Source: an uncultured Thermotogae bacterium (lineage in GTDB: Bacteria > Thermotogota > Thermotogae > Mesoaciditogales > Mesoaciditogaceae). Taken from it: a stretch of 64,000 nucleotides of DNA. The stretch is from positions 1 to 64,000 of the forward strand of contig CAJXLN010000004.1 in NCBI GenBank assembly GCA_913056255.1, in the 5' to 3' direction. The notes beneath the pieces were generated by a model. It made no database searches and was not told the origin of the DNA. It saw only the letters and a program-made list of their open reading frames with translations. Shown here in pieces: positions 46,737 through 49,973 of the stretch (the stretch's first letter is position 1; every line of letters starts with the position of its first letter). A program made the position numbers and the translations under genes.

Positions 46737-49700
46737 TCAGAACATAGAAAATCCGAAACTACCCGTCACCGGATCAAAAGAAACGAACTTCTCTGGAAAT
46801 GCCGTTATGTAAAGCGTGAACGCGAATTTTGAAAATTTGAATCCTCCTATCGTGGAGAAAACCATCGATCCTCTCAATCCCATACAATCCCAGAGCTTTA
46901 AGAAATTCAAGGTCGTAGATTGCAATTGCCCGTTTGAATAGCTTCCCTTTGAAGACAAGCCAATGCCAAGAGCCTTTAAATTTCCAGATGCGCTGAAATT
47001 GAGATTACTTATTGAAAGATCTTGAGATTTTATAGTGAATTCTGTTGACAGCTTGAAATTTGAGAGAAACAACAAATTCTTGAGAGATGCGGTGAATTTG
47101 TTCGAGATATCTGAAAACTCTTTGGAATTGTAGTCATACAGCGTTTCGGCATGATAGGCAAAACCGGACCATTTCGAATCGAGAGAGTATTTTGTGTTCA
47201 CGAGCTTAGGAAGCTTAGGAGATGGTTCTATTATCGTACTTGTATTTAGAGCATTTTTAATGGTAAAAATGCTGAAATTCGATGAAGTGGTAAGCACCAT
47301 ATTTGACCATGGATGTGTCGAATTGTTGAAATCGTATGAAAACTTTGATGCGGCACTCAGCGGAATAATTGGGAATTTGTATTTCAGAGAGAATGCAACG
47401 TTGTTTTGATAGTTGTGCGTATCGAAATTCGAAATGTTTTTTCCTCCAACTTGTATAAAGGTTTGAAGTGCGGAAATATTAAGTCCAAGCAAATTATAAG
47501 ATAAATTCGTCTTCAATATTGAGGCAATTCTGTTAGAAATCGATACATTTCCACTTTCGGTTTTGAACCCTGTTTTCGCACCATACGACAAATTTAACCC
47601 CAATCCAAAGAATTTGGTGCTCAATGAACTGAAATTATAACTCGCATCTGTAAAAGTCGAGTATTTCAAAGGTTGATTAGATGAAAAAGACATATTTCCA
47701 GAGTAAACACCTGTAATGGATTTTAAAGTAAAAAATCTCAAGGGCCATGAGAATTTTCCAGAAATGGAATTGGCATTTGAAAAATCACCTGAAGGTAACG
47801 AAAAATTACCATTTCCATTCACTTTACCCGTTAACTTCAGTGGACCAAGCGATGCTCTAAAATCATTTATACTGTAAGGAATATTGTATTTTTGCACACC
47901 ATTCGATACGGATTGAATGGCTTTTAAAGCAAGAGCACCACCCAAGGCAGGACCTGAAAGAGAAAGAACGGAATCCTGTTTGTTGGATTTCACATCGTTT
48001 TGATAGTTGAAAGACAATTTGTATGATTTAAAGAGAGTTCCCGAGGTTCCAAACTTGACAATTTCACTTGATTTAGACCCATTTTCTGAAGAGTTAGAAT
48101 ACGAAAGAGAAAAGGGCAATCCAAACAACTTTCCTGCAAGATCAAATCCTTGATTTAAGGGACCTTTTTGATAAGAATCGAAATGCACATCTCCGTTCAG
48201 AGAATCACTTGGAGAAAAGTTGAATTTTACAGCTGTGTACCAGCCTTCACTGGCCGAATAGTTGAAAGAAACCTCCATGGGTTGCTTGCCACCTGTCAAT
48301 GAGTAGTAATACTGAGGCAAATACATAACAGGTATTCCAAATATGTACATCACCACATTGTAAGCGATCAAATGATCACCTGGAACGATGTAAATCTCGG
48401 AAGATTCCACTTTGTAATGCGGAGGACTTGCCGTACATGTGGTTATGTAGCCGGGTTTTATAACGCTTGTTCCAGATTTTGTATCGTAGAATGTCTTATT
48501 TCCCCTGAAATACACATTTTTTTTAACTCCTTTTGCATTCTTAACTTTGACAGTCCCGCGAATACTCTCAACAAGAGCCACTTGTTTTTGAAAATCAACC
48601 GTCATTTTCGAGGAAAATATCTTTCTCTTTTCTTGGGTGTAAACGACATTTCCTACGAAAACCGCTTGCGTAACGTGACCTTTTTCATCAAGAAAGATAC
48701 TGGCTTCCGATGCACTTACACTGTAATTGAAAGATTTGATCGTAACTCCTCCGGTATAAACCACTTCAGTGGCTGAGAGAGTTTTCAACTGTCCAGCGGT
48801 AACCGTAAGTAACTGAGAGCTGAAAGCCCGACTTGATATTCCCAGAACGAATATGACTAAAAATATTGGCATGATTCTGATCATGATTTCTTTTATCTTA
48901 AACATCAAGCGACTGTCCAAAAGCAAAAAGAAAAGTACCCCAACAAGGGCGAAAATCAAATCAGGAAGCCATGAAGCTAAGATCGGTTTGATCATTCCGT
49001 TCTCTCCCATAGCATTCAGCCAAGCGCTTGAACCTTGATAAAGAACCACCAGAATGAAAGTTATTATCACGCCCCAAGACTTGCTCTTTATTCCAAAAAA
49101 CAGTGAGAACGGAACCCCAAAGAACGCGATGATAAAAGCTCCCAATGCATTGGCAAAACGTGAGTACAACTCAACTTCAAAAGTTCTTGGATTAAGTCCC
49201 AATTTCTTGAAAAGATTTATTCGATCCCTCAACTCTTGTGTACTCATGGCTTCAGGTGGTTTTTGCGAACGAATGTATTTAATGACTTCTTCCGTTATAT
49301 TCAGTTTCATGGTGTTAAAAGACATGTCAAAATTCATCAAGCCGTTTTTAAGGGTGTAGGTTCTTCCGTCTTTTAGATACCAATTTCCGTTTTTGATATA
49401 CGCACTCTTTGCGTATACAACGCTGATGTTATTGCCGGATATGCGGTACATGAGAACTGTGCTGAATCTTTCCGTTTTCGGATCGAATTCCTTCACATAA
49501 AAATAATTGTTGTTTGCCTTGAAAAATGTGTTCGTTTCCACTTTTGGCAGTGAAGAATGCCACACATTTTTCGCCTCATACTCTTTCGCCCTTGTAGTAA
49601 AATTCGGAACCACGTAATTCTCGATCAGGTATGTACCAAATGCCAGAATTATCCCCATTATTAAAAAGGGAATTACGATCTTTTTCAAATTTATACCGTG

Positions 49701-49973
49701 AACTTGAAATGCCATGAGTTCGTGTCGAGTCGAAAAATTCGACAATACCCAAAAGATCGCAAGTAAAGTACCAACTGGAATTCCCATCACGACGAATTTC
49801 GGAAGATAATAATAGATCAAAACAAAAAGTTCCCAAAATCCAACGTGATTTTGTATTATGATGTTCGATATCTGATACAACAATTCAACGCTTACGAAAA
49901 TTATAAAACCTATCAGTCCAATGAAAAACGGCATAACGAATTCTTTGGACACGTATTTATAGAGAGTCTTCAA
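46737..49973 (-). CDS. LptF/LptG permease fused to an LptA/LptD-like outer-membrane part
   Basis: This is a 1078-residue single frame. Residues 1-358 match an LptF/LptG permease with six membrane helices and a periplasmic domain. Residues 364-385 form one further hydrophobic segment, like an internal signal. Residues 395-490 resemble the LptA/OstA beta-jellyroll (SEASIFLDEKGHVTQAVFVG). Residues 505-555 carry TTCTASPPHYK and PGDHLIAYNV, close to LptD. The rest is glycine- and serine-rich beta-strand sequence ending in Phe, as for a barrel. In LPS bacteria these are separate proteins of one bridge. TTG 49973 follows GGAGG by eight bases. Confidence 0.85.
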   Translation of the reverse strand: MKTLYKYVSKEFVMPFFIGLIGFIIFVSVELLYQISNIIIQNHVGFWELFVLIYYYLPKFVVMGIPVGTLLAIFWVLSNFSTRHELMAFQVHGINLKKIVIPFLIMGIILAFGTYLIENYVVPNFTTRAKEYEAKNVWHSSLPKVETNTFFKANNNYFYVKEFDPKTERFSTVLMYRISGNNISVVYAKSAYIKNGNWYLKDGRTYTLKNGLMNFDMSFNTMKLNITEEVIKYIRSQKPPEAMSTQELRDRINLFKKLGLNPRTFEVELYSRFANALGAFIIAFFGVPFSLFFGIKSKSWGVIITFILVVLYQGSSAWLNAMGENGMIKPILASWLPDLIFALVGVLFFLLLDSRLMFKIKEIMIRIMPIFLVIFVLGISSRAFSSQLLTVTAGQLKTLSATEVVYTGGVTIKSFNYSVSASEASIFLDEKGHVTQAVFVGNVVYTQEKRKIFSSKMTVDFQKQVALVESIRGTVKVKNAKGVKKNVYFRGNKTFYDTKSGTSVIKPGYITTCTASPPHYKVESSEIYIVPGDHLIAYNVVMYIFGIPVMYLPQYYYSLTGGKQPMEVSFNYSASEGWYTAVKFNFSPSDSLNGDVHFDSYQKGPLNQGFDLAGKLFGLPFSLSYSNSSENGSKSSEIVKFGTSGTLFKSYKLSFNYQNDVKSNKQDSVLSLSGPALGGALALKAIQSVSNGVQKYNIPYSINDFRASLGPLKLTGKVNGNGNFSLPSGDFSNANSISGKFSWPLRFFTLKSITGVYSGNMSFSSNQPLKYSTFTDASYNFSSLSTKFFGLGLNLSYGAKTGFKTESGNVSISNRIASILKTNLSYNLLGLNISALQTFIQVGGKNISNFDTHNYQNNVAFSLKYKFPIIPLSAASKFSYDFNNSTHPWSNMVLTTSSNFSIFTIKNALNTSTIIEPSPKLPKLVNTKYSLDSKWSGFAYHAETLYDYNSKEFSDISNKFTASLKNLLFLSNFKLSTEFTIKSQDLSISNLNFSASGNLKALGIGLSSKGSYSNGQLQSTTLNFLKLWDCMGLRGSMVFSTIGGFKFSKFAFTLYITAFPEKFVSFDPVTGSFGFSMF

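Follow-up and report, generated by a model that had tools for sequence, protein, structure and literature searches.

A Thermotogota gene joins an LptF/LptG-type permease to LptD through a signal-peptide-like segment and probably encodes a polyprotein of an Lpt pathway without lipid A

The window analyzed here is a stretch of 64,000 nucleotides from an uncultured Thermotogae bacterium (GenBank assembly GCA_913056255.1, contig CAJXLN010000004.1, positions 1 to 64,000). On its minus strand, positions 46737-49973 form a single uninterrupted frame of 1078 residues, which starts with TTG and contains no internal stop. Sequence, profile and predicted structure show that this frame encodes an LptF/LptG permease, followed by a signal-peptide-like segment and a complete LptD. 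An earlier note on this DNA had recognized LptF/LptG, LptA-like and LptD-like parts in the frame, and this domain reading proved right throughout when compared with Pfam, NCBIfam, profiles and structures.

The permease domain comprises residues 6-349 (48927-49958, minus strand), which matched PF03739 (LptF_LptG) over profile positions 1-351 of 353 with an E-value of 9.6e-77 and 258.8 bits (cut-off 27.9). With phmmer, solved structures of both LptG and LptF were matched, and the permease half scored below the NCBIfam equivalog cut-offs of both LptF and LptG. The periplasmic beta-taco of the permease could be assigned to residues 149-224 (49302-49529, minus strand) from the strands in the full-length AlphaFold2 model, at the same position as in LptF/G. 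The earlier note had suggested a search for the other permease; the window's own genome holds one permease gene only, and no second LptF/G gene was found in it. As Thermotogota genomes typically carry one permease gene, in the own genome as in nearly all of the phylum, the gene pair for an LptF/LptG heterodimer is not present; being encoded only once per genome, the permease probably forms a homodimer.

The C-terminal half consists of an LptA-like beta-taco, the LptD N-terminal domain (residues 390-544; 48342-48806, minus strand), and the LptD barrel part (residues 547-1078, ending with F; 46740-48335, minus strand). The beta-taco, visible as strands in the model, was detected by PF03968 (LptD_N, OstA) at residues 436-504 with an E-value of 1.2e-4, just above the cut-off, and by the NCBIfam LptD model PRK03761 at residues 388-553 with an E-value of 4e-8, far under the full-length cut-off of that model. 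No Pfam or NCBIfam family model matched the barrel itself, even when 55 homologous C-terminal halves were scanned, in which the beta-taco alone was detected (22/55). Therefore, a comparison of folds was needed. A profile built from the 55 halves matched the solved LptD structures 8h1r (E-value 1.8e-8, positions 4-302) and 7omm (E-value 6.4e-6), and the match spans the block TTC...PHY...A.N...P.FY.P.YF.SL. The AlphaFold2 model of residues 386-1078 is almost entirely beta with a mean pLDDT of 90.0, and the first 37 PDB hits retrieved with it by Foldseek were all LptD, the best being 5iv9_A (E-value 3.4e-21, probability 1.0). According to AlphaFold2 and Foldseek, this half has the LptD fold, an N-terminal beta-taco followed by a barrel of the 26-strand class. 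TM-scores against LptD were just ∼0.4 across the whole chain; judged from the model, the loops and the beta-taco-to-barrel angle would differ, or the barrel would be shaped otherwise. Structure prediction and profile searches, both named as checks in the earlier note, thus place the half with LptD, and the LptA/LptD similarity whose absence would have spoken against that note is present.

The only two cysteines are Cys513 in the TTC block (48435-48437, minus strand), which is a cysteine in all 51 non-redundant homologues, and Cys1030 in a C-terminal block that reads LHCW in relatives (46884-46886, minus strand), with an aligned cysteine in 42 of the 51. Two of the four cysteines of the LptD inter-domain disulfides are kept; as far as the alignment indicates, Cys513 is likely the counterpart of E. 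coli LptD Cys173 and Cys1030 likely that of Cys724/725. At several loci (L066, L072, L076, L078, L081, L113, L047, L083 and L084) histidine or lysine takes the place of the C-terminal cysteine (LHHW, LHKW), with the first member of the cysteine pair retained.

To what extent the fusion is spread can be read from 103 Thermotogota genomes, 100 of which contain an LptF_LptG match in a Pfam search. In 89 of these 100 the match sits in a frame of at least 900 residues, and these cover 11 families and include complete genomes; the named relatives are Mesoaciditoga and its family. In the other 11 genomes the frame is cut by a contig end in six (G001, G021, G030, G033, G061 and G097), broken by stops or frame breaks in three (G040, G043 and G093) and genuinely split in two (G005 and G053). 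Thermotoga maritima, included as a control genome, also matched LptF_LptG and LptD_N. A sequencing error that merged two genes, which the earlier note had put forward as a possible refutation, is ruled out by the recurrence of the same frame in 89 genomes. In this heat-loving phylum, almost all bacteria encode the permease and the outer-membrane LptD gate as a single long protein.

The two halves are joined by an internal signal-peptide-like segment (residues 355-385; 48819-48911, minus strand), which is conserved in the 51 non-redundant homologues. In the window it consists of the n-region KIKEIMIR, the core PIFLVIFVLGI and the c-region SSRAFS. A signal peptidase I cut is predicted between residues 385 and 386 (AFS/SQ; 48818-48819, minus strand) from the conserved small residue at -1 and from the split relatives, and the junction reads KIKEIMIRIMPIFLVIFVLGISSRAFS/SQLLTV, with the slash marking the predicted cut. 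Junctions of 72 fusions were aligned and reduced to the non-redundant set of 51 with pairwise identity below 80%. In this set, basic residues are followed by an uncharged stretch from -15 to -6, and the hydrophobic core of 9-16 residues (median 11) is short for a membrane helix. Small or helix-breaking residues occur at -6/-5, an aromatic residue is found at -2 in 82%, and the residue at -1 is small in 49/51 (96%). The beta-taco starts a few residues past the predicted cut, and in the same phylum BamA, Skp and standalone LptA carry N-terminal signal peptides with similar ends. Located between two domains, the segment of the candidate polyprotein has the basic n-region, the short core and the small -1 residue of a signal peptide. 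In the full-length AlphaFold2 model, a helix is predicted at 355-383 and pLDDT values below 50 occur solely at 380-385. At -1, Ser or Gly is more frequent than Ala, and at -3 Leu is found in 10 of the 51 junctions, so that, judged from sequence, the site falls short of an optimal one for signal peptidase I. When BamA and Skp signal peptides of this phylum were used to train a cut-site weight matrix, its score was dominated by core hydrophobicity and discriminated poorly between the junctions and either transmembrane ends (AUC 0.68) or shuffles (AUC 0.73). Because of this weak discrimination, the case for a cut does not rest on the matrix.

The two genuinely split relatives bear directly on this junction. 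G005 has two tandem permease genes and, elsewhere, an 849-residue LptD with its own N-terminal signal peptide. In trees, the fused barrels of G006 and G007 are the sister group of this LptD (support 100/100), and both permeases join the G006/G007 permease (100/97). This grouping with fused relatives speaks against the idea that G005 represents the ancestral unfused state. Because the trees join its LptD and permeases to fused relatives, G005 would be a later split followed by permease duplication, with the caveat of long branches. Within Thermotogota, its tandem LptF/G-type permeases (L092 5410-6594 and 6613-7743) group together (98/96) beside a fused relative; in sequence terms, a permease of two subunits seems to have newly arisen from a single fused one. 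In G053, the permease ends within the n-region (...SYKITEPLKRLLG, followed by a stop), and a few bases on, an ATG opens MHLRYKSFSPVLFIISLFFIILSGTKVFS/A and an LptD of 848 residues, which matched the LptD profile with an E-value of 1.8e-114. The G053 genome is a draft, but a base-calling slip is unlikely to have caused its split, because nothing equivalent to the new n-region exists in the fused relatives. In both genomes the split lies at the signal peptide and LptD begins with a signal peptide of its own, as expected if the segment already served as a signal peptide. Since the halves are separate in G005 and G053, a lasting link is not obligatory. According to the earlier note, the barrel part either has to get away from the inner membrane or has to be cleaved around residues 364-385, and a predicted cut is well supported by the conserved segment ending at 385 and the two split relatives. 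For the same reason its headline, one chain spanning the inner and the outer membrane, has become less likely.

Outside the phylum, a broad sample of about 190 genomes was searched, and the findings stand for the matches listed. In most of the other-phylum diderms looked at, the permease is encoded apart from LptD. Among the matches listed, at least one permease-LptD fusion was identified, a protein of 984 residues in G202 (L206 4594-7548), a genome of another lineage assembled as a single contig of 1.70 Mb. Its junction segment reads RLRLRGILSVVLLLAFTAAAAAG/GPPF, its barrel half matched the LptD profile over 115 positions only (E-value 7.7e-7) with the TTC block present, and its permease is sister to all Thermotogota permeases (97/97). 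In G106, from another phylum, lptF/G and lptD are adjacent and unfused, with a 4-base GTGA overlap (L208 2676-4904 and 4901-5980), and the LptD has an N-terminal signal peptide. It is likely that the fusion arose by loss of the stop in a gene overlap of the G106 type. The split relatives and this overlap suggest how the fusion arises and how it is undone. Other long permease frames outside the phylum were considered as the same fusion; with G202 as the exception, this was rejected, since the five examined are LptF-LptG fusions of 790-933 residues from other phyla (L189 2928-5297, L191 139-2592, L192 2032-4479, L193 161-2590 and L188 1060-3858).

Of the partner genes, LptB (TIGR04406) was found above the cut-off in 39 of 41 genomes searched and BamA in 88 of 103 Thermotogota genomes. 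The own genome (G000) carries lptB on contig C37 (4920-5618; L158), ∼3 kb from bamA. In relatives, lptB often follows a Skp-like gene (L161-L167). A separate LptA-like protein is present in all 21 good-quality relatives, whereas a search of the own assembly (89% complete) returned none. The earlier note had proposed to look for lptB and lptC elsewhere in the genome: the former was found as given above, and a search of the own genome returned no LptC. LpxC (PF03331) was found in none of the 103 Thermotogota genomes, while the four control genomes matched. Because of this absence the cargo is not lipid A, and the Lpt path of these bacteria runs without it. The cargo would most likely be an outer-envelope glycolipid. 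Transport of some lipid or glycolipid to a toga-like outer membrane, as the earlier note had proposed, thus finds support as far as a non-LPS cargo is concerned, from the missing LpxC and the presence of LptB and BamA; the identity of the lipid is not part of this support.

Taken together, it is considered quite probable that the gene encodes a polyprotein which signal peptidase I splits into two parts, a permease (probably an LptB-driven homodimer) and an outer-membrane LptD, both working in an Lpt machine for a cargo other than lipid A. Sec would insert the permease, the last helix of which would end in the cytoplasm, and residues 355-385, with their basic stretch and short hydrophobic core, would then act as an internal signal peptide that initiates a second round of export. 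After a cut by signal peptidase I at about residue 385, the freed LptD would cross the periplasm and be folded into the outer membrane by BamA, whereas the permease, probably homodimeric and associated with the LptB encoded on contig C37, would remain in the inner membrane. In most relatives, the bridge over which a glycolipid would be delivered to the toga may be lengthened by the separate LptA-like protein. The fusion would secure 1:1 synthesis at one place. The fixed stoichiometry claimed in the earlier note accordingly holds only for synthesis, as a homodimer could mean two LptDs per transporter.

Alternatively, the chain could stay uncut, with the segment as a seventh transmembrane helix and a covalent trans-envelope bridge from the permease to the barrel. 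MlaD of Veillonella parvula is a precedent, as it is found at full length across membrane fractions and combines a helix in the inner membrane with a barrel in the outer membrane (PMC10665443). The predicted helicity of segment 355-383 and the weak matrix test (AUC 0.68) are also compatible with this, and a selective value of a lasting link could explain why the fusion is retained in nearly all genomes. However, a cut is favored by the short core, by breakers at -6/-5 and by the small residue at -1, G005 and G053 encode separate halves with a signal peptide on LptD, and most other-phylum diderms looked at encode the permease apart. An uncut chain is therefore unlikely. Its extension to most Thermotogota, in which covalent bridges of ABC permease and LptD, two per homodimeric transporter, would carry a non-LPS glycolipid to the toga, is doubtful. 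A different protease might do the cutting, such as a rhomboid or a periplasmic enzyme acting in the linker, and the segment would then persist as a membrane anchor of one half. Residues 380-385 are indeed the least ordered part of the full-length model, and Ser/Gly at -1 and Leu at -3 do not make the strongest signal peptidase I sites, but the small -1 residue, the breakers and the short core fit the signal peptides of the same phylum, and the same place carries an N-terminal signal peptide in the split relatives, which makes this possibility very improbable. That the frame is an artefact, or that an internal start yields a separate LptD, is hardly credible: the halves are adjacent genes in G053 and G106, so that a merger takes one small change, but the open frame recurs across the families mentioned above, and an internal translation start was rejected as not conserved, with an ATG in the n-region of just 19 of 51 genes and 28 of 51 having no candidate start with an upstream ribosome-binding match.

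The E. coli LptB2FGC-LptA-LptDE system shares the LptF/G permease, the LptB ATPase, the beta-tacos and the LptD barrel with TTC and C-terminal cysteine blocks. In contrast to E. coli, permease and LptD are here encoded by one gene, one LptF/G gene is present instead of two, LpxC is missing from the phylum and LptC was not found in the own genome. In FbcH, the cytochrome b/c1 precursor of Bradyrhizobium, an internal signal sequence comes after a polytopic membrane protein, and the precursor is cut into two proteins; unlike here, it belongs to a respiratory complex and both parts remain at the inner membrane. An Lpt-like system including LptD was proposed in Borrelia burgdorferi, a bacterium without LPS; there it consists of six separate proteins with LptF and LptG apart, whereas permease and LptD are fused here (PMC10353723). 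The Lpt cluster of Negativicutes and Halanaerobiales shares a single LptF/G homologue, OstA proteins and LptB, but these bacteria have LPS, and neither a clear LptD nor a fusion was reported there (PMC5007114). MlaD likewise combines, in one lipid-transporting polypeptide, a part in the inner membrane with an outer-membrane barrel; it differs in that it belongs to the unrelated MCE family, has one helix and a small barrel, and is uncut, with no internal signal-peptide-like segment noted (PMC10665443).

In a survey of outer-membrane genes, with lptD among the genes searched, Thermotogae were described as lacking nearly all of those studied except bamA (PMC8871954). Contrary to this, LptF/G and LptD were found here phylum-wide, LptB and BamA in almost every genome searched, and an LptA-like protein in most relatives; a fused gene is easily overlooked by surveys that assume one gene for one protein. 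The literature searched on Thermotoga, with subscription papers mostly outside its scope, contains no description of a permease-LptD fusion, and an earlier mention is possible. A literature search for internal signal peptides returned viral polyproteins only. Every part of the protein comes from a known family, and what is new is that they occur fused, and probably processed, in bacteria without LPS. Thermotogota, described as missing the Lpt machinery, possess it without making LPS, and, with LpxC absent, they allow one to ask what Lpt carries in the absence of LPS and whether LptD builds the toga as an outer membrane. The internal signal peptide offers a direct and cheap test case for bacterial polyprotein processing between two membranes.

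In family f6 (L040-L043, L045, L046, L062 and L111) the barrel halves exceed those of the other families by ∼350 residues, giving fusions of ∼1430-1470 residues. LptA-like proteins with tandem OstA repeats occur in G005 (three repeats, 603 residues, L093 2294-4105) and in G099 (two repeats, 330 residues, L103 4321-5310), and these are perhaps pre-joined units of the bridge.
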